NCBI GenBank assembly: GCA_024681175.1
Contig: JAILBI010000057.1
Span: 1 to 14,879 of the forward strand
Direction: 5' to 3'
DNA from: Acholeplasmatales bacterium
GTDB lineage: Bacteria; Bacillota_I; Bacilli_A; Acholeplasmatales; Anaeroplasmataceae
DNA length: 14,879 nucleotides
The position numbers and the translations under genes were made by a program. Under the pieces are notes generated by a model. The model was not told the origin of the DNA and did no database searches. It worked only from the letters and a program-made list of their open reading frames with translations. Within the stretch, counting starts at the first letter, position 1, and every line of letters begins with the position of its first letter. Of this stretch, positions 2,449 through 14,624 are shown one piece after another.

Positions 2449-5400
2449 CTACTTTCCACCAATTGTTGGATTAATTTTAATTAAATATTCTCTTAATGAC
2501 TTAAATCCTTTAACAATCCATGGGATTAAATTTGTAAATAATTTAATTAATGGAGATGCAAGTAAGCATAGCATTAATACAAATATTTTACTTGAAATTG
2601 ATAATTCTCTTATAGTGCCACCCTTTGTTACAACTACGGCATTTTGATCAAATTTATAATTAGTTTTTAAATTACCAATGACTAAATAATAATCATCTGC
2701 AGTAACATCACTTCTTAAATTTAATAAATTATCAATATAATTTTCATTTGCACTATAATCTGTATAATAATCATCAATTATATAATGATCTTTTGTTGTA
2801 TGCTTTATTTCAGGGCCATAGAATTTATCATCAAGTGAGCATGATGTAACAATACTATTTAATCTATCTCCAGTATTAACAGAGAATTTATCATTTTCAA
2901 CTAATGTTGTTCCATCATATTTACCAACACTTAATTCAACTTTTTCTGCAGTAAATACTGTATCAGTTGTAGATCTATATGAAGCATAATTATTTGTTGG
3001 GAAATTTGCAAATGCAAAGGCGTCAAGTAATTCTTCTCCATTATAGAATTGCTTTTCATTTTTATTATATGTTAATAAATTATCACTAGAATCATAGAAA
3101 TTATAACCTATTACATTTCCAGGTAAGCTAACCTTTTCACCAAATAATTCTGCAATATTTAATCCTGTTTCTTTAGCTTCAATATGCATTTTATCAGTTC
3201 CTGATTCAGATAATGCTTTAGAAATCTTTGGAATAACAATTAAATATTCTTCATCTTCTCTTGATGGATCATTATATGTTCTTTTAACCTGAACACCATT
3301 AATCCAAAGCTCATATACACCTTGCATATTATCGCCTGTTTCAGGATTCTTATGGGCTTTAATTTCAGGTTCAATATCACTTTTTAATGCATCATTGATA
3401 AATTTATCAGGAACCTTATATTTATATTCTTGTGAATTATCACCATTAATAATATAATTGCTTCCTTTAATTTCAATAGTAGGCATTAAAGAATATGTCT
3501 TAATATGGCTATTACCAGATGTTTCTTTTCCATATGGAGTATAATATCCATAATATGAATTTTCTCTTGTTAAAGAGATTTTTACATAATTTTTTTGGTT
3601 TTTATAATACATACGTCCACTTGAATCTAGATATAAATTATCTTCAAAATTATCTTCATAATTGAAATTGTCAATTTTATAACCAGACACATATATTAAA
3701 CCATTTTCATCAAATGATAAATCAGGTAAATCTAATTTGCGATTAGTTATTTTGCCATTAATTGCATAATATAATGTATTAGATGTTGAAGAATTCATAT
3801 AATTTGCAGTTAATGTATCAGTTGTATTGTTGTTATCAACCTTTAAGCTTACTGCATTAGATGAATATGTTCCATCTACATTCTTTGGATAATAATAAAC
3901 TATCTTACCATCCATTACATATGTATAATCATCTGATATGTTAATTGATGGGTAATTTTTAATTGATACTATTTTTGCATCACTAGAATAATATTCTGAA
4001 TATGATGTTAATGGTCTTAATTCAAATAATTTTGGAATTAAGAATATACATATTAAGAATAATGTATAGCATACTGTAACTAATATACGATGTAATTTAT
4101 TCCATGGCTTACAAATCTTAAATAGAACCATCATACATGTATGAGTTGCAGAAATGACAATTATTGTAGTTCTTGTAACATCATCAAAATATAATGATTT
4201 AGTTAACGCAAATACAATAATTGAAATAATTAATACAGTGAAGGCACCCGGTAGTGCTTCTTTCATGACGTTGACAATAAATTTACCTTTAAATGGACTA
4301 TTATTTGGTTCCATTACTAAGAATAATGATGGTAAACCAATACAGAATAAATCAATCATGAAGAATTGATTTGCAGATAAAGGATAAACTCCTGTCATTA
4401 ATCCTTGAATTGCTAAAAATAATGAGAAGAATGTCTTAGTTAAGAATAATGCAGAAACTTTAGTTATATTATTAATAACTCTTCTACCTTCTGCAACAAC
4501 ATAAGGCATTGAATCAAAATTTGAATCTACTAATACTAAGTGTGAGCAATTTCTTGCAGCATCTGAGCCAGATGCCATAGCAATTGAGCAATCAGCTTCC
4601 TTTAAGGCTAAAATATCGTTGATACCATCACCTGTCATAGCAACTGTCTTGCCCATTTTCTTTAATGTTTGAACTAATAATTTCTTTTGATGTGGTGTAA
4701 CACGACCAAATACATTATATCTTGCAGCTGATAGGATAACCTCGTTATCTGTCATACCATCTAAAGATACATATTTATCATAATTTAATACACCAGCTCT
4801 TTCAGCTATTTTAGATACTGTAACTGGGTTATCACCTGAAATAACCTTAACCTCTACTCCTGATTCAATGAAATATTCAATAGTCTTTCTTGCATCAGGA
4901 CGAATATTATCTTCAATTAATATTAATGATAATAATTCCATTTTAGAATTAGGAAGTGTATTGTTATCAACAATATCACCATCCATTCTTACAAGTGATA
5001 ATACACGATATCCAAGCTTTGCATATCTTTCAATTTCTTTTTGATACTTTTTATATCCTTCTTGTAATACAAATTCAGGAGCACCTAAAATAAATGTGCC
5101 ATATTTTTCAAAGCTTGCGGCTTCATATTTAATTTTTGAATTAAATACGATAACACCTGTTTCCTTTAGTGTAAATTCATTACCATATCTTGATTTTAAT
5201 GCTTTAGATGTAAAGTTATTATCCTTTGTAGCATTTAAAAGTGCGGATATTATATCGCCTGTTTTAAGCTCATATTCCTTATTATAATTAATTTCATTAC
5301 GAACCTTCATTGTACCATCAGTAATTGTACCTGTCTTATCTAGACATATACAATTAACTCTTGCAAGCATTTCGATACAATATAATTCCTGAACTAATAC

Positions 5401-6510
5401 ATTTTTCTGACCAAGATTTAATACACCTACTGTTAATGCTATAGATGCCATTAGGAATAATCCTGATGGAATCATACCAATTACAGCACCACACATCTTT
5501 CTAACTGAATATGTGAATGTTTGATCCTGTCTAAAATACATAATAATAAATAATAATGTACCAAGTACAATGACAGGAACAGTCATAACCTTAATAATTA
5601 AATTTAATGATCCAAGCAAATCACTTTTTGGCTTTTTATAAGCTTTAGCTTGATTAGATAATTTTTCAATATAATTATCTTGACCAACATGCTCAACTCT
5701 TGCATAGCATGTTCCTGATGCAACAAATGAGCCTGATAATAAATTATCTCCAGGATGCTTAACAATTGGCTCAGATTCACCTGTTAATAATGATTCATTA
5801 ACTTCAATGTCGCCTTCTACAACAATTGAGTCGGCAGGAATTTGATTACCACTTCTTAAGACAATAATATCATCTATTACGATATCAGCAGTAGATATTT
5901 CATGCTCTTCACCATCTCTTACAACTGATGCAGTAGGTGATGTCATTAATGATAATTTATCAATCATATTCTTTGCTCTTATTTCTTGAATAATACCAAT
6001 TATGATATTACATACTGCAATAAGTAAGAATGTTAAATCTAAATATGCATTAACAAATATTAATAAAGCTGCTAAAAAGAAAATTAAGAAGTTAAAGAAT
6101 GTACAAATATTAGAAACAAATATTTTACCTAAGGATTTAGAAGTCTTTTTCTTTGTTCTATTACATAAATTTAAAGACATTCTTTCTTCAAATTCTTCAT
6201 TTGTTAAGCCTTTATCATAAGGAGCTTCTACTCTTTTAATTTCAATATTGTTTTTAATAGCTTCTTTTCTATTTTTCTTTCTTTGCTTTAAAAGCTCTCT
6301 ATCATTTTTTCTTTGAACCTTTAATTCAGCTTGTCTTTGACGTTTTTCTTCTCTAGATAATTCTTTAGTATCTTCGATATCCTTTATCTCAATAATTGAA
6401 GAAGAATCATCGTCATCAATATTCACTTTTTCTTCTTCAGGGAATGATGATTCATCTAAAGCCTTCTTTAGTTCATCATCAGACATATTATCAAGATTAA
6501 AGTCTTTCAT
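2449..6510 (-). CDS. P-type cation ATPase (CtpE-like) with a large extracytoplasmic domain between the last two membrane helices
   Basis: A 1353-residue ATP-driven cation transporter, far longer than the usual 800-900. Residues 1-125 are cytoplasmic and very charged, with a Lys/Arg-rich probable coiled coil (50-90). Core marks are M1/M2 (134-175), actuator motif LTGES (242-246), M4 with MIPSGL (346-351), the phosphorylation motif DKTGT with D391, LGAPE in the nucleotide domain, and TGDGIND (626-632, hinge D628/D632). M6 reads MIDLFCIGLPSLFLVMEPN. M4 and M6 resemble CtpE-type ATPases, of which the mycobacterial member is reported to move Ca2+; the substrate here is inference. M9 ends near 829. 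Then come about 475 Tyr/Asn/Asp-rich polar residues predicted to lie outside, and M10 at about 1307-1335. M4 has Ser349 where CtpE, as I recall it, has Glu. The ATG overlaps mrnC by 14 bases, with GGAG seven bases upstream. Confidence 0.9.
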   Translation of the reverse strand: MKDFNLDNMSDDELKKALDESSFPEEEKVNIDDDDSSSIIEIKDIEDTKELSREEKRQRQAELKVQRKNDRELLKQRKKNRKEAIKNNIEIKRVEAPYDKGLTNEEFEERMSLNLCNRTKKKTSKSLGKIFVSNICTFFNFLIFFLAALLIFVNAYLDLTFLLIAVCNIIIGIIQEIRAKNMIDKLSLMTSPTASVVRDGEEHEISTADIVIDDIIVLRSGNQIPADSIVVEGDIEVNESLLTGESEPIVKHPGDNLLSGSFVASGTCYARVEHVGQDNYIEKLSNQAKAYKKPKSDLLGSLNLIIKVMTVPVIVLGTLLFIIMYFRQDQTFTYSVRKMCGAVIGMIPSGLFLMASIALTVGVLNLGQKNVLVQELYCIEMLARVNCICLDKTGTITDGTMKVRNEINYNKEYELKTGDIISALLNATKDNNFTSKALKSRYGNEFTLKETGVIVFNSKIKYEAASFEKYGTFILGAPEFVLQEGYKKYQKEIERYAKLGYRVLSLVRMDGDIVDNNTLPNSKMELLSLILIEDNIRPDARKTIEYFIESGVEVKVISGDNPVTVSKIAERAGVLNYDKYVSLDGMTDNEVILSAARYNVFGRVTPHQKKLLVQTLKKMGKTVAMTGDGINDILALKEADCSIAMASGSDAARNCSHLVLVDSNFDSMPYVVAEGRRVINNITKVSALFLTKTFFSLFLAIQGLMTGVYPLSANQFFMIDLFCIGLPSLFLVMEPNNSPFKGKFIVNVMKEALPGAFTVLIISIIVFALTKSLYFDDVTRTTIIVISATHTCMMVLFKICKPWNKLHRILVTVCYTLFLICIFLIPKLFELRPLTSYSEYYSSDAKIVSIKNYPSINISDDYTYVMDGKIVYYYPKNVDGTYSSNAVSLKVDNNNTTDTLTANYMNSSTSNTLYYAINGKITNRKLDLPDLSFDENGLIYVSGYKIDNFNYEDNFEDNLYLDSSGRMYYKNQKNYVKISLTRENSYYGYYTPYGKETSGNSHIKTYSLMPTIEIKGSNYIINGDNSQEYKYKVPDKFINDALKSDIEPEIKAHKNPETGDNMQGVYELWINGVQVKRTYNDPSREDEEYLIVIPKISKALSESGTDKMHIEAKETGLNIAELFGEKVSLPGNVIGYNFYDSSDNLLTYNKNEKQFYNGEELLDAFAFANFPTNNYASYRSTTDTVFTAEKVELSVGKYDGTTLVENDKFSVNTGDRLNSIVTSCSLDDKFYGPEIKHTTKDHYIIDDYYTDYSANENYIDNLLNLRSDVTADDYYLVIGNLKTNYKFDQNAVVVTKGGTIRELSISSKIFVLMLCLLASPLIKLFTNLIPWIVKGFKSLREYLIKINPTIGGK

Positions 6511-6904
6511 CTTTTTCTCCTAATTTAAAAATTAAATTTATTAATTCTTCTAATCTAGAAATATTATTTTGTAAATATAAATAACCAATTAATGCTTCAA
6601 ATCCAGTAGCCTCTAAATATGTTTTAACATCCATATTTGCTCTACGTGAATGAATATGTGAGTTTCTACCTCTTTTATATATTTCGATTTCATCTTCTTT
6701 AAGTATATCATTATTTAATAAATAATGCACATAAAATGATTGTCTCTCGCCCTTAGTATATATTTGCTGAAGGTTATGTAAATCATTTACTTTGCTATAT
6801 CCTTTAAAAATGAAATGCTTTCTTACATATATTTCGTAAACACAATCCCCAATATATGCTAAAGATAAACCATTTAATAATTTAGGATCTATAGTATGTT
6901 CCAT
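6497..6904 (-). CDS. mrnC: Mini-ribonuclease III (Mini-III)
   Basis: A 135-residue RNase III catalytic domain without the double-stranded RNA-binding domain, matching the usual Mini-III length. In Bacillus this dimeric enzyme matures both ends of 23S rRNA. LSLAYIGDCVYEIYVRKH carries the metal-binding Asp (D20). RGRNSHIHSRRANMDVKTYL is the conserved central signature, and ATGFEALIGYLYL carries the second acidic residue (E103). The ATG at 6904 lies inside the end of cysS (16-base overlap), and its own end overlaps the ATPase gene, so the three are probably translationally coupled. The cysS-mrnC pair is standard in Firmicutes; what follows it here is not. Confidence 0.95.
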   Translation of the reverse strand: MEHTIDPKLLNGLSLAYIGDCVYEIYVRKHFIFKGYSKVNDLHNLQQIYTKGERQSFYVHYLLNNDILKEDEIEIYKRGRNSHIHSRRANMDVKTYLEATGFEALIGYLYLQNNISRLEELINLIFKLGEKDERL

Positions 6905-8217
6905 GATATTAATTCATTACGATATAAATCAGCTTTTTCAAAATCTTTATTATTTCTTGCATCCATCCATTTACGATATGTATCAAGCTGTTTATCGTTC
7001 ATTCTTTCAATAAATAAATTAATTCCTAAAACATCTAAAATAGTTTTAAATGTATTAGTTTTTACTGCAAGCTCATCATAATCTTTATTTCTTAAAGATA
7101 CATTAATTGCTTTTTGAATATCATTTAATAATGTTAAAACATTTTGAACATTAAAATCATCATCCATAGCTTCTTTAAATTTATTAATATCATCTTCATT
7201 TAAATTAGCTGTTTCTTTATTTAAATACATCAATGTATATAATGAATTCTTGTAGCATCTTTGCCATTTTTCATATTCTTTTTTATATTGATCTTTTAAT
7301 TCATCAGTATATGAAATAATACTTCTATATGGTGAAAATAAAATTAATGAACGTAAAATCATACCCTCTTCTTTAGTATTAATGTCTTTTACATAAATAA
7401 CATTACCTAAAGATTTACTCATCTTTTCACCCTTAAGGTCTAATCTTCCTACATGAATCCAATATTTAGCTAAATGATGATGATATAATGCTTCACATTG
7501 GGCAATTTCATTTTCATGATGTGGGAATTTAAGATCCATTCCACCACCATGAATATCAAGTGTATCACCAAATAAACGATGATTCATACATACACATTCA
7601 GTATGCCAGCCTGGTCTTCCTAGGCCAAATGGTGATTCAAATTTAATACCTTTATCTGTCTTTTTCCATAATGCAAAATCAAGTGGACTTTCTTTCTTAT
7701 CATTAATATCAATTCTTGCACCTGATTCTAAATCCTCTTTAACCTGATTTGAAAGACAGCCATAATCTTCAATTTTAGATACACGGAAGAAAACATCTCC
7801 ATCAATTTCATATGCATATCCTTTTTTAATTAATTCATCAATGAAATTAACCATATCTGGAATATATTCAGTTGCATGTGGAATTAATTTAGGCTTTTGT
7901 GAACCAACTGTTTGGCAATCTTTAAAATATTGATTTTCAAAAAATGTTGATATTTCTTTTTCAGTTTTATTTTCTTCAATTGCTTTATTGATAATTTTGT
8001 CATCAATATCAGTGATATTTGATGCATAATTTACTTCATATCCACAAAATTCTAAATATCTTCTTAGCATATCATAAAAAATAACTGGTCTTGCGTTACC
8101 TATATGTATATAGTTATAAACTGTAGGCCCACATACATACATATTAACTTTATTTTTATTTTGAGGAATAAATTCTTCCATTTTATTTGTTAATGAATTA
8201 TAAATTCTAAGTGCCAT
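6889..8217 (-). CDS. cysS: Cysteinyl-tRNA synthetase
   Basis: A 442-residue class I aminoacyl-tRNA synthetase that charges tRNA-Cys with cysteine. VCGPTVYNYIHIGNARPV (from 28) holds the zinc ligand C29 and the HIGH-type motif HIGN. GRPGWHTECVCMNH supplies the second zinc Cys, and FPHHENEIAQCEA the His and Glu ligands. KMSKS is at 265-269. An alpha-helical anticodon-binding region follows. The C-terminus stops at NELISWNIL, about a dozen residues before the usual end that carries a DT-x-x-G-T-x-W signature; the 3' end overlaps the mrnC start. The ATG at 8217 is preceded by GGGG. A terminator-like hairpin ends only about 20 bases upstream of the ATG, leaving no space for a promoter between them, and there is no T-box leader. 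Confidence 0.97.
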   Translation of the reverse strand: MALRIYNSLTNKMEEFIPQNKNKVNMYVCGPTVYNYIHIGNARPVIFYDMLRRYLEFCGYEVNYASNITDIDDKIINKAIEENKTEKEISTFFENQYFKDCQTVGSQKPKLIPHATEYIPDMVNFIDELIKKGYAYEIDGDVFFRVSKIEDYGCLSNQVKEDLESGARIDINDKKESPLDFALWKKTDKGIKFESPFGLGRPGWHTECVCMNHRLFGDTLDIHGGGMDLKFPHHENEIAQCEALYHHHLAKYWIHVGRLDLKGEKMSKSLGNVIYVKDINTKEEGMILRSLILFSPYRSIISYTDELKDQYKKEYEKWQRCYKNSLYTLMYLNKETANLNEDDINKFKEAMDDDFNVQNVLTLLNDIQKAINVSLRNKDYDELAVKTNTFKTILDVLGINLFIERMNDKQLDTYRKWMDARNNKDFEKADLYRNELISWNIL

Positions 8218-8267: not shown

Positions 8268-10205
8268 TTATAATAAATAATTGTCAGTTAAATAAGCTTT
8301 AATATCAGCATTAAGATGCTCATATGTTGCACCATTATTTGATGTTTGACATTCAATAAATTTTGAGCTTCCTTCTGGAGATGCAAAATCAACTACATAA
8401 ATCTTTCTTGTACCTTTAGTGTAATAATTTGAGAATGTCTTTTCTGTAACATCTTCAGCTAAAGTAAATTCTTCACCATCTTCTGTTTCATAATAATCTT
8501 TATTTGAATTAAAGCTTGTAGCCTTATTTAATAAATAATATGTTACACCATCTTCAAATTCAGTAATATTCACTTTAGTTAATGTATTTTCTTCTGCTAG
8601 AATATAATAATTCTTTTCTGAAGAATATTCTGCTGTATTAACTTCTGGTAAATAATAATTTGAAAAATTAGATTCAGTTACATCTGTTTTTTCAACATAT
8701 GTATCAGATACTAATTCGTAATATGTTTCATCTGCACTATAACTTGTAGCCTTTGAATATTCATCATTAGCTAGCATATTAACAAATGTTTCATCCTTAT
8801 AATATACATAAGACTCTGAAATTTTATTAAATGGATCATATGCTAATCCTAAGAAGCCTGAAACATTTACTTTATTTTTAGAAATTTTATAATCAGAATA
8901 ATTTGCAACAATTGCGGCATCTTCTGCAATAGGACCTGCATGTAATTCCATTGAAGTAATTGCTAAACAATTTTCAATATCAATTGAACCTGATCCTCTA
9001 GCGTTAGTTCCTGCAAAGCCACCAACTGCTAAAGTGAAATTATTATATGATGTATTTGTTGACATTGTATATTTTGAAATTACAATTTCATTATCTGAAT
9101 AACAATCTTTAATTGCTGATGGAGTACCAACGTTTCCTACAAAGCCTCCAACATAATTAATACCTTGTGTTGATGTTTCATAATTTAATGCAGCCTTAAT
9201 TGTTCCAATTGCGCTTGAATTTGAAATGATTGAAGGTGCCTCTTCGCCTGGTTTACCTAAAGCTTCACCTGTAATTTCACCAACATATAAGCCACAAATA
9301 ACATTTAATGATGATTTAGTTAATTTTAAATTGAAATTCTCAACTTTATTATTTGTAAATAAGCCACCATCTGCATAGCCTACTAAGCCACCTAAACGAT
9401 ATGCTGTTGATGCAAGATCGCATTCAACTGTCATGTTAGAATCTTTAATTGTAACATTATCAACAATAGTCTTAGATGCTTCACCAATTAAGATACCACC
9501 ATCAAAGCCTGATCTTGAAGCACTAACTGTTGCATTTTCAATTGTTAAATTCTTAATTGTTGCGCCATCAGTAAATCTAAATAAGCCAATATCTGTATTT
9601 GATTCTAATACAAAATTTTTAATTGTTTTACCATTACCATCAAATGTACCTTTAAATTTATTTGTAGCATTGAATGGTAAAGTTACTGTACTACCAGCAA
9701 AATCAATATCATTTTCTAAAGTATAATATCCTTCTTGTTGAATGCTATTTAAGAAATCTTCTGCATTCTTAATTGATATTGCATCATCTTCTGTATTATT
9801 TGAAGATGTTTTAAATTTATCATTTCTTAAAACTGATGTATCTCCATCAAATGTTAAATATAATTCAAATCTATATTCAGTTGCTGAATCTAGATTGTTA
9901 AATGTTAATTCATAGCTTGTGATAACTGATTTACCAGAGAAATCTAAATCCTTATAGCTCTTATAATCATCATTATCATCTTCATCTTCTGTAACTAAAT
10001 AATATTTAACAGATAATTTTGCAGTTCCTTTTTTAATATTTTCATTTGTAGGGAATGTATATTTTAATGTGATTGATGATGTTGTAGTAGTTGCTTTTAC
10101 ATCAATATTATCACCACTTAAGCCTGAGCCTTCCTTTTTACATGCCATAAGTGTAATCATCAATAACATTAATAAAGCTGTTAATATAGCGAAACGTTTT
10201 TTCAT
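8268..10205 (-). CDS. Large lipoprotein: Fn3-like domain, GLUG-type beta-helix region and C-terminal tandem Tyr-Tyr repeats
   Basis: A 645-residue protein with a lipoprotein signal peptide (MKKRFAIL, hydrophobic core, lipobox L19-M-A-C22), so probably anchored on the outer membrane face. Residues about 33-135 resemble a fibronectin-III-like fold (SSITLKYTFP, ATEYRFELYLTF). Residues about 140-480 contain short recurring units of GLUG or beta-helix type: FKGTFDGNGKTIKNF, GGLVGYADGGLFTNNKVENF, VGGFVGN...IKDCYSDNEI, VGGFAGT...IDIENCLAIT and VSGFLGLA. Residues 486-598 are three imperfect repeats of 37-39 residues, each with two YY pairs. Such architectures occur in surface adhesins and glycan-binding proteins; no catalytic motif is visible and no substrate can be named. 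GAGGT lies eight bases before the ATG. It has its own promoter (10251-10279) and terminator, so it looks monocistronic, apart from possible read-through into cysS. Confidence 0.88.
   Translation of the reverse strand: MKKRFAILTALLMLLMITLMACKKEGSGLSGDNIDVKATTTTSSITLKYTFPTNENIKKGTAKLSVKYYLVTEDEDDNDDYKSYKDLDFSGKSVITSYELTFNNLDSATEYRFELYLTFDGDTSVLRNDKFKTSSNNTEDDAISIKNAEDFLNSIQQEGYYTLENDIDFAGSTVTLPFNATNKFKGTFDGNGKTIKNFVLESNTDIGLFRFTDGATIKNLTIENATVSASRSGFDGGILIGEASKTIVDNVTIKDSNMTVECDLASTAYRLGGLVGYADGGLFTNNKVENFNLKLTKSSLNVICGLYVGEITGEALGKPGEEAPSIISNSSAIGTIKAALNYETSTQGINYVGGFVGNVGTPSAIKDCYSDNEIVISKYTMSTNTSYNNFTLAVGGFAGTNARGSGSIDIENCLAITSMELHAGPIAEDAAIVANYSDYKISKNKVNVSGFLGLAYDPFNKISESYVYYKDETFVNMLANDEYSKATSYSADETYYELVSDTYVEKTDVTESNFSNYYLPEVNTAEYSSEKNYYILAEENTLTKVNITEFEDGVTYYLLNKATSFNSNKDYYETEDGEEFTLAEDVTEKTFSNYYTKGTRKIYVVDFASPEGSSKFIECQTSNNGATYEHLNADIKAYLTDNYLL
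8412..8750 (-). repeat. Three tandem ~37-residue coding repeats in the large lipoprotein
   Basis: Residues 486-522 (starting ATSYSADETYYEL), 523-561 (NTAEYSSEKNYYIL) and 562-598 (ATSFNSNKDYYETE), 37, 39 and 37 residues long. Each has a YY pair near position 11, a V/I-T-E motif near position 25 and a closing YY. Units 1 and 3 are closest (both ATS at the start and FSNYY near the end) and share the DNA word GGCTACAAG at their start; unit 2 has diverged. Confidence 0.8.
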
Positions 10206-10393: not shown

Positions 10394-13333
10394 ATGTTTA
10401 AAATTGGATTAGATGTAGGCTCTACAACAATAAAAACAATTGTTCTAGACGAAAACGAAAACATTATTTATAAAGACTATAAAAGACACTACTCTCATAT
10501 TAAAGATAATATTATTTTAAAGCTCAGCGAGCTTATAAAAGAAAATATTGTACCTGATGAGGTTAATTTAGCCATTTCAGGAAGTGCCGGCATGGGTATT
10601 GCCGAAGGACTTGGAATTCAATTCGTTCAAGAGGTTTATTCAACAAGAATTGCCGCAAATAAGCTAATTCCTGGTACTGATTGTATTATTGAGCTTGGTG
10701 GTGAGGATGCTAAAATTTTATTCTTAACCGATGGTCTTGAGGTTAGAATGAATGGTTCTTGTGCTGGTGGAACTGGCGCATTTATTGACCAAATGGCAAC
10801 ATTATTAAATGTTGATATTACTGAAATAAATGGTCTTGCAAGTGAACACCAAAAGCTTTATTCTATCGCTTCAAGATGTGGTGTTTTTGCAAAAAGTGAT
10901 ATTCAACCACTTTTAAACCAAGGAGCATCTAAACAAGATATTGCTGCTTCTATTTTTTATGCTGTAGTTAACCAAACAATTGGTGGTCTTGCACAAGGAA
11001 GAGAAATTAAAGGTAAGGTTGCATATTTAGGTGGGCCTTTAACATTCTTATCAGAATTAAAGGTTGCATTTGATAAGGTATTAAATACTAATGGTATTTC
11101 ACCTGAAAATTCACTATATTATGTTGCACTTGGTGCTGCATATTGTGCAAAAGAAAAAATATCAATTAAAAAGACTTTAGAAAATTTAGAAATATTTACT
11201 AATAAGTCTACTTATGCTTATAATTCACCATTATTTAATGATGAAAAGGAATATCAAGAATTTTTAGAGAGACATGATAAGGATAGAGTTGAAACTCTTC
11301 CTTTGGATAATTATACAAAGCCTTTATATTTAGGTATTGATTCAGGTTCAACAACATTAAAATTCGTTCTTGTTGATGAGGATGGAAATATAAGATTTGC
11401 ATCATATAATCCTAATAAAGGTAATCCTGTATCAGTTATTAAGGATATATTTGATGATTTATATAAAAAATATCCTAATATGAATATTGTTTCTTCAGCT
11501 GCAACAGGTTATGGTGAGGATTTAGTTAAAAATGCATTTATGCTAGATGGTGGTATTGTTGAAACAATGGCTCACTACATGGCTGCATCTAAATTCATGC
11601 CTAATGTTGATTTTATTATCGACATTGGAGGACAAGACATTAAATGCTTCAAAATAGAAAATAAAGCTATCGCAAATATTTTCTTAAATGAAGCTTGTTC
11701 TTCTGGCTGTGGATCATTTTTACAAACTTTTGCAAATGCATTAGGATATAAAATTGAAGATTTTGCTAAATTAGGCTTAATGGCTAAAAAGCCAGTAGAT
11801 CTTGGCTCAAGATGTACAGTATTTATGAATTCTTCTGTTAAGCAAGCTCAAAAAGATGGTGCAACAATGGACAATATTTCTGCAGGCTTATCAATTTCAG
11901 TTGTTAAAAATGCATTATATAAGGTTATAAGAGTTGCATCTAAGGAAGAGCTTGGTAAAAACATTGTTGTACAAGGTGGTACATTCTTAAATAAAGCTGT
12001 ATTAAGAGCCTTTGAAAAGGAATTAGGAATTGATGTAGTATGTCCTAATATCGCAGGCTTAATGGGTGCCTATGGTGCAGCATTATATGCAAAATCATTA
12101 AAAGTTGAACATACTTCTACTATTAGTAAGGAACAATTAAAATCATTTAAGCATGATGTAATTAATATTAATTGTAATGGTTGTTCAAACCATTGCTTAT
12201 TAACAATTAATACATTTAATGATAATCCAAATAAATTCATATCAGGAAATAGATGTGAAAAGCCACTTGGTATTAAAGCTGATTCTAAGGGTGAAAATTT
12301 ATATGAATTTATGAGAGAAAGATTATCATCATATAATCAGGTTGCAGATGCAAAGCGTGGCACTATCGCAATTCCTTTATGCTTAAATATGTATGAGCTA
12401 TTTCCATTTTGGTATACATTCTTTAAAAATATGGGATTTAATGTAGTATCATCAGGATTTTCTAATGCAGAAATATTTAGATTAGGTGTTCATACTATCC
12501 CATCAGATACAGTATGCTACCCTGCTAAATTAGTTCATGGACATATTGAAAAATTAATGAATGAAGGATATAAAAATATCTTCTATCCTTCTATGACATA
12601 TAATATTGATGAAAATGGTCATAAGGGTATAGGTGATAACCATTATAATTGCCCTATTGTTGCATATTACCCAGAAAATATTATTAATAATGTTGATGCA
12701 ATAAAGAATATTAATTTCATTAGTGATTTTATTACCCTAGATGATCCTAAGGTATTAAAAACTAAAATGAAAGAAATATTATCTAAATATTTTAGTGGTA
12801 TAAAACAAAAGGATGTTAATAAATCAATTGATTTAGCTTTTGAAGAATATAAAAATTATTTAACTGATATTAGAAATAAAGCTAAAGAATTTGTTTCTAA
12901 TGCTAGAGAAAAAGGAAGACAAATAATAGTTCTTGCAGGAAGACCTTATCATACAGATCCTGAGGTTAACCATGGTATTGATAAGCTTATCGCATCACTT
13001 GGTGCAACAGTTATTACTGAAGAAAGTGTATCTTACCTAGAAGATAAATTCCCAGTAAGAATATTAAATCAATGGACTTATCACCAAAGATTATTCCAGG
13101 CTGCAAGATATTGTACACATGAAAAGGATATGAATTTAGTTCAATTAGTATCATTTGGATGTGGACTTGACGCTGTTACAACAGATGAATGTAAATCAAT
13201 ACTTGAAGCAAAGGATAAGATTTATACACAAATCAAAATTGATGAAATTACAAATTTAGGTGCAGTAAAGATTCGTTTAAGAAGTCTTTTCGCAGCCTTA
13301 AAACAAAGGGAGGATAAAAATGGAGAAAGATAA
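10394..13333 (+). CDS. Tandem acyl-CoA dehydratase activase (ASKHA) with COG3580/DUF2229-type domain
   Basis: A 979-residue cytosolic protein. Two BcrA/BadF/HgdC-type ASKHA ATPase modules lie in tandem: about 1-255 (IGLDVGSTTIK; GSCAGGTGAF with C123; SRCGVFAKSD with C162) and about 312-562 (LGIDSGSTTLKF; EACSSGCGSF with C435; GSRCTVFMNSS with C474). In HgdC one such Cys pair per subunit of a homodimer holds a bridging [4Fe-4S] cluster, and ATP drives electron transfer to a partner. Here both pairs are 39 residues apart, so one chain could form an internal dimer. A Cys cluster follows (C594-x2-C597-x3-C601-x19-C621), then a COG3580-like region (IAIPLCLNMYELFPFWYTFF, VCYPAKLVHGHIEKL, AGRPYHTDPEVNHG). 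Homologues are usually fused to a COG3581 domain, here a separate gene overlapping by 14 bases. The reaction is unknown to me; ATP-dependent low-potential reduction is inference. Confidence 0.9.
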   Translation: MFKIGLDVGSTTIKTIVLDENENIIYKDYKRHYSHIKDNIILKLSELIKENIVPDEVNLAISGSAGMGIAEGLGIQFVQEVYSTRIAANKLIPGTDCIIELGGEDAKILFLTDGLEVRMNGSCAGGTGAFIDQMATLLNVDITEINGLASEHQKLYSIASRCGVFAKSDIQPLLNQGASKQDIAASIFYAVVNQTIGGLAQGREIKGKVAYLGGPLTFLSELKVAFDKVLNTNGISPENSLYYVALGAAYCAKEKISIKKTLENLEIFTNKSTYAYNSPLFNDEKEYQEFLERHDKDRVETLPLDNYTKPLYLGIDSGSTTLKFVLVDEDGNIRFASYNPNKGNPVSVIKDIFDDLYKKYPNMNIVSSAATGYGEDLVKNAFMLDGGIVETMAHYMAASKFMPNVDFIIDIGGQDIKCFKIENKAIANIFLNEACSSGCGSFLQTFANALGYKIEDFAKLGLMAKKPVDLGSRCTVFMNSSVKQAQKDGATMDNISAGLSISVVKNALYKVIRVASKEELGKNIVVQGGTFLNKAVLRAFEKELGIDVVCPNIAGLMGAYGAALYAKSLKVEHTSTISKEQLKSFKHDVININCNGCSNHCLLTINTFNDNPNKFISGNRCEKPLGIKADSKGENLYEFMRERLSSYNQVADAKRGTIAIPLCLNMYELFPFWYTFFKNMGFNVVSSGFSNAEIFRLGVHTIPSDTVCYPAKLVHGHIEKLMNEGYKNIFYPSMTYNIDENGHKGIGDNHYNCPIVAYYPENIINNVDAIKNINFISDFITLDDPKVLKTKMKEILSKYFSGIKQKDVNKSIDLAFEEYKNYLTDIRNKAKEFVSNAREKGRQIIVLAGRPYHTDPEVNHGIDKLIASLGATVITEESVSYLEDKFPVRILNQWTYHQRLFQAARYCTHEKDMNLVQLVSFGCGLDAVTTDECKSILEAKDKIYTQIKIDEITNLGAVKIRLRSLFAALKQREDKNGER

Positions 13334-14624
13334 ATCTCTTGAACCATATATTGATGATAATTATCAATTCCCTAAATTTAATCGTTCAATGGTTAAAGAC
13401 CATACAATTTTAATCCCTTCTATGCTTGATATACATATGGCTTTATTTGAAGGCGTATTAACACAGGCAGGATATAAGGTTGAAATATGTAGAAATGAAG
13501 GAAAAGATGTAGTTGAAACAGGATTGAAATATGTTCACAATGATACCTGCTTCCCTGCACTATTAGTTATTGGTCAATTTATTGATAATTTAAATCATAG
13601 AACTGATCATGATAAATTAGTATTATTAATAACTCAAACAGGTGGAGGCTGTAGAGCTTCTAATTATATCCACCTTTTAAGAAAAGCTTTAATTAAAGCT
13701 GGCTATGGCTTTATACCTGTATTATCATTAAATGCTGCAAACCTTGAAAAGGATGCAGGATTAGATATTACATTTAATTTAATTAAAAAGGTTGTTGCAG
13801 CCATGACATATGGCGACCATTTAATGTATTTAAGAAATAAAACAAGATCTTATGAAAAAAATATAGGAGATACTAAAAATTTAGTAGATTCTTGGGTTAA
13901 AAAATTATTAGATCAATTTAAGATTAATAAAGGTATTTCTTATAGAGCATTAAAGAAAAATTTAAATTTAATTGCTAAAGATTTTGGCAATCTAGATTTA
14001 GATTTATCACATGCAAAGCCAAAGGTTGGTATTGTAGGTGAAATATATATTAAATATGCAGCACTTGGTAATAACCACCTAGAAGATTTCTTAGTATCAG
14101 AAAATGCTGAAGCAATGGTTCCAGGACTATTTGGTTTCGTCTTCTACACATTATATAATGGTATTTATGATCATTTATTATATGCAAGAAGTAAAAAAGC
14201 CGCAATAATTAATAAATTCATTATTTGGTATTTACATAGAAGAGAAAAAATGATGGTTAAAGCCATTAAGAAAAATACTAATATTACACCTATGAAATAT
14301 TTTAAATATACAAAGGACATGTCAGAAGGTGTCCTAGACCATGGTGTAAAAATGGGTGAAGGCTGGTTACTTACAGCTGAAATGATGGAGCTTTGTGAAA
14401 CAAATTATGATAATATCATCTGTGTTCAACCATTCTCATGCCTTCCAAATCATATTTGTGGTAAGGGCGTAATGAAGAAAATTAGAAAAACATTTGAAAA
14501 TGCCAATATTATCGCAATAGACTATGACCCATCACAAACTAAGGTTAACCAAGAAAATAGAATTAAATTAATGCTTTCAATTGCTCGTGAAAGAATTAGT
14601 GATGATGAAAAGGCAAAATTATAA
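13320..14624 (+). CDS. COG3581-type partner of the activase (2-hydroxyacyl-CoA dehydratase-related)
   Basis: 434 residues that resemble the C-terminal third of the fused activase-related proteins. Sequence marks are TILIPSMLDIHMALFEGVL near the start, HNDTCFPALLVIGQ (C77), LLITQTGGGCRASNYIHLLR (C111), KPKVGIVGEIYIKY in the middle, and QPFSCLPNHICGKGV (C374, C380) followed by IIAIDYDPSQTKVNQENR near the end. These Cys residues are candidates for Fe-S ligands or for contact with the activase, as in the HgdA/HgdB dehydratase folds, but no ligand set is proven. The ATG lies inside the last codons of the activase gene (14-base overlap) with a strong GGGAGG before it, so equimolar, coupled synthesis is likely. 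Its stop overlaps the next start as TAATG. The two genes total 1413 codons, matching the one-chain homologues. Function unknown. Confidence 0.88.
   Translation: MEKDKSLEPYIDDNYQFPKFNRSMVKDHTILIPSMLDIHMALFEGVLTQAGYKVEICRNEGKDVVETGLKYVHNDTCFPALLVIGQFIDNLNHRTDHDKLVLLITQTGGGCRASNYIHLLRKALIKAGYGFIPVLSLNAANLEKDAGLDITFNLIKKVVAAMTYGDHLMYLRNKTRSYEKNIGDTKNLVDSWVKKLLDQFKINKGISYRALKKNLNLIAKDFGNLDLDLSHAKPKVGIVGEIYIKYAALGNNHLEDFLVSENAEAMVPGLFGFVFYTLYNGIYDHLLYARSKKAAIINKFIIWYLHRREKMMVKAIKKNTNITPMKYFKYTKDMSEGVLDHGVKMGEGWLLTAEMMELCETNYDNIICVQPFSCLPNHICGKGVMKKIRKTFENANIIAIDYDPSQTKVNQENRIKLMLSIARERISDDEKAKL

Follow-up and report, generated by a model that had tools for sequence, protein, structure and literature searches.

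A P6-like P-type ATPase with a large extracytoplasmic domain between M9 and M10 in Acholeplasmatales-type bacteria

We analysed a 14,879-nt stretch of DNA (the window) from an Acholeplasmatales bacterium and found that it encodes a P-type ATPase carrying a domain of about 470 residues between its last two membrane helices. The domain-bearing pump is real, is spread through one lineage and is undescribed in the literature searched, the available parts of which contain no description of a P-type ATPase with such a domain and no experimental study of any domain-carrying member (most subscription journals lie outside this scope). That the domain sits in the M9-M10 loop of a ten-helix P-type ATPase is, in our judgement, practically certain. 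Its function is a matter of likelihoods, and we tentatively favour a role as a built-in subunit of the pump.

Architecture, topology and genomic setting

The main features of the gene are as follows.

2449-6510, minus strand: P6-like P-type ATPase with M9-M10 ectodomain, a single ATG-initiated open reading frame of 1353 aa
6133-6510, minus strand: charged cytoplasmic N-terminal extension until M1 (residues 1-126)
5458-5469, minus strand: M4 motif PSGL (residues 348-351), replacing the PEGL of CtpE (PMC10654040)
5326-5340, minus strand: phosphorylation motif DKTGT (residues 391-395)
4015-4452, minus strand: M5-M9 (residues 687-832), with K692 and T693 in M5, D720 and I724 in M6 and H790 in M8
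2599-4014, minus strand: extracytoplasmic, mostly beta domain in the M9-M10 loop (residues 833-1304)
2506-2598, minus strand: M10 (residues 1305-1335)

Consistent with an earlier sequence-only reading, which had reported a full set of P-type catalytic motifs, TGES is present at residue 243, DKTGT at 391 and TGDGIND at 626. Pfam assigns PF00122 (E1-E2 ATPase, 155 bits) and PF00702 (HAD hydrolase, 76.1 bits) and finds no domain in the last third of the protein, and the general P-type ATPase model TIGR01494 is the sole NCBIfam model to exceed its cut-off; motifs and domains both place the protein in the P-type ATPase superfamily. Hydropathy in a 19-residue window gives helices at residues 127-180 (M1-M2), 297-329 (M3), 339-368 (M4), 687-705 (M5), 714-735 (M6), 744-778 (M7), 781-801 (M8), 805-835 (M9) and 1299-1333 (M10), with no membrane segment between M9 and M10. 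The earlier reading had counted nine helices up to about residue 829 and a last one at about 1307-1335; this count holds, with M9 extending to about 832 and M10 starting from about 1300 by hydropathy and at about 1305 in the AlphaFold model. The insert thus measures 468-472 residues (833-1300/1304), close to the roughly 475 proposed, and it is indeed rich in Tyr, Asn and Asp (10.3, 10.5 and 8.5%, against 3.4, 5.8 and 4.7% in the core). Its proposed location outside the cell is borne out by topology and by superposition of M5-M10, which together rule out a cytoplasmic placement. The interval 2449..4023 to which the feature had been assigned lies within the ATPase reading frame, but is only its 3' part, from residue 830 to the stop codon. 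The charged extension preceding M1 is common to the six full-length members that we aligned.

The ATPase start codon is preceded by AGGAG and overlaps by 14 bases the 3' end of a 135-aa RNase III-domain gene (6497-6904, minus), which its size and order suggest to be mrnC, encoding Mini-III; cysS (6889-8217, minus) lies upstream of it. A hairpin with a T run directly 3' of the ATPase stop codon (2419-2447, minus), recognised by eye and absent from the list of the consensus scan, is likely a terminator, and a cysS-mrnC-ATPase unit appears to end with the ATPase gene. The usual cluster order in Bacilli is cysS-mrnC-rlmB. Here the ATPase and a lipoprotein gene lie between cysS-mrnC and a SpoU-type methylase gene (841-1563, minus), as though both had been inserted into such a cluster. 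That next gene after the ATPase (1931-2359, minus) encodes a 142-aa lipoprotein-like product that has PF09479, a Listeria-Bacteroides repeat, and a stretch rich in Ser and Thr. The gene at 8268-10205 (minus) also has a lipoprotein-like product, of 645 aa, which contains a GLUG motif and, towards its end, repeated 'YY' stretches, and two overlapping genes of the CoA enzyme activase kind (979 and 434 aa; BcrAD_BadFG, DUF2229) run divergently from the ATPase unit at 10394-14624 (plus).

Pump class and transport site

On its sequence, the window protein is a P6-like, CtpE-related cation pump. CtpE is described as a 791-aa Ca2+ uptake pump of Mycobacterium smegmatis (PMC5615198) and as the founder of the proposed P6 class, whose mark is the replacement of an M6 aspartate of Ca2+ exporters by isoleucine (PMC10654040, available part). 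By sequence, the window ATPase is related to solved pumps for Ca2+ and for other cations. The closest full-length relatives that we found without the insert are open frames of 780-950 residues; a scan of genome contigs gave three Saccharibacteria loci at 40-41% identity, and relatives from Monoglobus, Enterococcus, Collinsella and actinobacteria are 35-43% identical over the core. The two actinobacterial relatives used are about as long as CtpE and show PEGL. With these two standing in for CtpE in a quick tree with long branches, the window ATPase grouped with the CtpE-like proteins and apart from three P2 rows (SH-aLRT 100).

Ten helices and the catalytic motifs are common to the window ATPase and the P6 ATPases (CtpE of Mycobacterium; family 23 of bacterial P-type ATPases), as is the M6 isoleucine, which is Ile724 in the window protein and Ile in 118 of 120 relatives; the core is 40-43% identical to the Saccharibacteria, Monoglobus, Enterococcus and Collinsella pumps. 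However, PEGL in M4 is replaced by PSGL in the window ATPase and in all 119 readable relatives, and where P6 pumps have about 790 aa and no large outer loop, the window protein has 1353 aa and a 470-residue M9-M10 loop, as well as an N-terminal extension that P6 ATPases lack. It is because of PSGL that we call the protein P6-like and not a CtpE-type Ca2+ pump.

The departures extend to the transport site. Residue 720 in M6 is Asp or Glu in 120/120 carriers of the domain and residue 790 in M8 is His in 119/120, whereas in seven insert-free relatives residue 349 is E, K or Q, residue 720 is S, A, N or D, and His790 occurs in none; residues 349, 720 and 790 presumably correspond to SERCA ligands, least surely in M8. 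An acid at 720 is otherwise found only in the two Enterococcus relatives, both of which have Asp there and Glu, not Ile, at 724. Judged from these alignments, ion sites vary within the P6-type class. Ca2+ uptake as in CtpE would be the default guess for the transported cation, and it is weakened by the changed site; a search of the window for a riboswitch that might indicate the ion found nothing in Rfam at gathering score. The domain-bearing relatives retain the catalytic motifs, with DKTGT in 119 of 119 readable sequences, TGDG in 120 of 120 and TGES in 113 of 119 (the rest being three TGEA and three SGES).

Two observations concern the insert-free pumps. The M4 glutamate is replaced by Lys or Gln (PKGL, PQGL) in both Enterococcus relatives (L032, L034) and in that from Collinsella (L033). 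In a Saccharibacteria locus (L001) the P6-type gene (34-2661, minus) and a P2-type ATPase gene (2708-5080, plus) stand head to head, and two ATPase matches in G002 are arranged alike.

Fold and distribution of the ectodomain

AlphaFold predicts the ectodomain to be mostly beta, with high confidence both alone (pLDDT 91.4, pTM 0.88) and together with M5-M10 (pLDDT 91.7, pTM 0.81). In the latter model M5-M10 superpose on solved pumps, the matched stretch being at most about 265 residues in the 50 entries listed against about 653 here; the solved P2-type Ca2+ pumps (ACA8 8qmp, PMCA 6a69, SPCA1 8iwp, LMCA1 9evc) lack a large M9-M10 domain, with a matched stretch of about 205-215 residues. The ectodomain has no significant fold match in the PDB or among viral models, which is no proof of a new fold. 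At the sequence level, the window insert gave no Pfam match up to E 1, an alignment of inserts gave stray Pfam matches only (E 0.072-0.76, each in one of five members), PHROGs gave nothing better than E 0.097, and PDB sequences gave nothing at E up to 1.

The ectodomain contains five copies of a hairpin motif; a windowed comparison with overlapping windows, which served as the blind control, did report a repeat.

3895-3954, minus strand: hairpin motif copy A (residues 853-872)
3673-3729, minus strand: hairpin motif copy B (residues 928-946)
3433-3486, minus strand: hairpin motif copy C (residues 1009-1026)
3163-3234, minus strand: hairpin motif copy D (residues 1093-1116), matching B clearly, C moderately, and A and E weakly
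2755-2817, minus strand: hairpin motif copy E (residues 1232-1252)

The segments were picked by eye and not every pair matched (A-D 3%, A-B 16%, B-C 37%, D-E 46%), and self-comparison of the whole insert reported no repeat; the alignments used here leave out P0001, a near-copy of the window ATPase, and the partial P0003. P0001 is also excluded from the counts of motifs, charge, conserved positions, gaps and conservation. All 120 inserts carry a net negative charge (-8 to -42). Pro, Gly and Tyr make up most of the conserved positions, His or Cys reaches 40% of members in no column, and an acid is present in at least 70% of members at six positions, which are scattered in sequence and not clustered. 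This make-up is more like that of a scaffold than of an enzyme or a tight metal site. In 33 of the 120 members (those with inserts under 410 aa), about two thirds of the stretch 1113-1192 is gapped.

A search with residues 825-1310 alone recovered seven proteins of the same architecture, including one from Anaeroplasma and one from Acholeplasmatales; excluding a near-copy, the remaining six share 25-33% identity with the insert, along its full length in five cases and over 42% of it in P0007. A profile search widened this to 7991 matched proteins, the best 120 of which are 1246-1425 aa long, and an M9-M10 loop of 362-509 residues is present in 121/121 retrieved proteins (these best 120 and the partial P0003). 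Since the profile includes the insert, carriers rank first, so that these figures describe the spread of the domain and not an absence of close relatives without it. With the same architecture on many contigs, an artefact of assembly or gene joining can be dismissed almost entirely as the source of the insert. The seven named carriers (P0002, P0003, P0010, P0026, P0053, P0113 and P0114) are from Anaeroplasma, Anaeroplasmataceae or Acholeplasmatales, within the Mollicutes.

In nine of nine P6-type relatives that lack the domain (three being near-identical Saccharibacteria), the M9-M10 loop has 3-23 residues, taken as those that align between positions 833 and 1304 of the window ATPase; a Kovacikia locus (L037) with no single frame containing both motifs was set aside. 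Across 59 genomes of the Saccharibacteria phylum, the matches listed fall in open frames no longer than 1048 aa, with no carrier among them. Searches of phages and plasmids (tblastn) and of IMG/VR did not find the ectodomain outside these pumps. A search of 6566 candidates for a free-standing copy gave one match, a fragment of 249 aa with 98% identity to the window ATPase, which we rejected as a fragment of the same gene. In a tree containing the window ATPase and every third of 119 other carriers (P0001 and P0003 left out), all 41 carrier rows fall on one side of one branch (SH-aLRT 100), in what is a quick tree with long branches, where L040 gave no row and the very long branch of G041hit is possibly no P6 pump. 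The domain was thus apparently gained once.

Possible roles of the domain

The earlier reading was right that a large domain lies outside the cell; the ion binding, ligand capture and gating that it proposed are taken up here as rival or inferred roles. The architecture is seen in sequence and prediction; mechanism and ion are deduced, and any mechanism is a reasoned guess. The one that we favour, at somewhat less than an even chance, is that the domain would act as an extracytoplasmic subunit, covalently built into the pump that it stabilises and tunes. Its ends, anchored beside M9 and M10, would pack onto the pump's outer face, where the packed domain would hold outward-facing states of the pump and shape ion access or affinity, with its variable stretches pointing to the surroundings. 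This picture of a base fixed on the pump and variable parts outward derives from the conservation of the insert, in which the mean majority-residue frequency is highest at the ends (0.57 in 833-872 and 0.53 in 1233-1304) and lowest in 873-912 (0.20) and 1033-1232 (0.32). A finer count weakens the built-in-subunit reading, since 913-1032 (0.50) comes close to the ends, giving a weaker gradient; the blocks are sequence stretches chosen after seeing the data, and the pattern is uneven, with no smooth gradient. Beta subunits, moreover, touch mainly M7 and M10 and not the M9-M10 loop, which counts against likeness to them.

The mode of action would resemble that of the Na,K-ATPase beta subunit, of CDC50 in lipid flippases and of KdpC in Kdp, and external subunits do recur among P-type pumps (PMC10654040). 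Like the window domain, the beta subunit of Na,K-ATPase and H,K-ATPase is a large folded extracytoplasmic part beside a P-type pump, and KdpC (Kdp K+ pump) and CDC50 (P4 flippases) are extracytoplasmic accessory parts (PMC10654040). However, the beta subunit is a separate polypeptide with its own helix, KdpC and CDC50 are separate subunits, and KdpB has seven helices, whereas here the domain lies within the reading frame of a single ten-helix chain. The likeness to the subunits of P2C, P4A and P1A pumps would lie in mode of action only. A bolder version, which we consider rather unlikely, would make these proteins a distinct P-type ATPase subclass of wall-less bacteria, with a new beta-rich ectodomain as an obligatory internal beta subunit and an ion site that Ser in M4, an acid in M6 and His in M8 have rewired to suit a cation or a direction unlike that of CtpE.

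The main rival to the built-in subunit is surface display, in which the domain would serve a wall-less cell as receptor, adhesin or shield and the pump would be mainly its membrane anchor. Hairpin repeats rich in Tyr and Asn are a frequent feature of surface proteins, the domain has stretches of strongly variable sequence and length, and two genes for lipoprotein-like products are nearby. The orders of the named carriers (Anaeroplasma/Acholeplasmatales-type) are described as wall-less (PMC10470597, available part), which would leave an outer loop bare to the surroundings. An anchor, however, needs no ATPase, yet the phosphorylation and TGDG motifs are kept throughout, and searches of phages, plasmids, IMG/VR and the candidate set turned up the domain in no other protein; we regard this role as doubtful. 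Less probable again is a cation antenna, whose diffuse negative charge would gather Ca2+, or some other cation, where an uptake pump admits it. The acidity of every insert and Ca2+ import by CtpE (PMC5615198) speak for it, but few acidic positions are conserved and these are scattered, and CtpE's M4 glutamate is missing. Acidity is in any case common in outer domains. The size and confident predicted folding of the domain would also suit an enzyme, or a chaperone acting on secreted proteins, but with no conserved His, Cys or catalytic-type set of acids, and nothing meaningful among the Pfam, PHROGs, PDB-sequence and fold matches, we rate such a function as highly improbable.

CtpE orthologues are recorded in Tenericutes, and the available part of that source mentions no added domain (PMC5615198). 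The P6 class was named recently, with CtpE as its sole functionally studied member described and the basis of ion direction posed as a question (available parts of the literature); the carrier family offers this class a natural set of transport-site changes. The ectodomain itself may be a fold without a solved relative. Finally, where P-type pumps have an extracytoplasmic accessory part, it is described as a separate subunit (PMC10654040). With the accessory part within one chain, the effect of an outer domain on its pump becomes testable by excision from a single gene.
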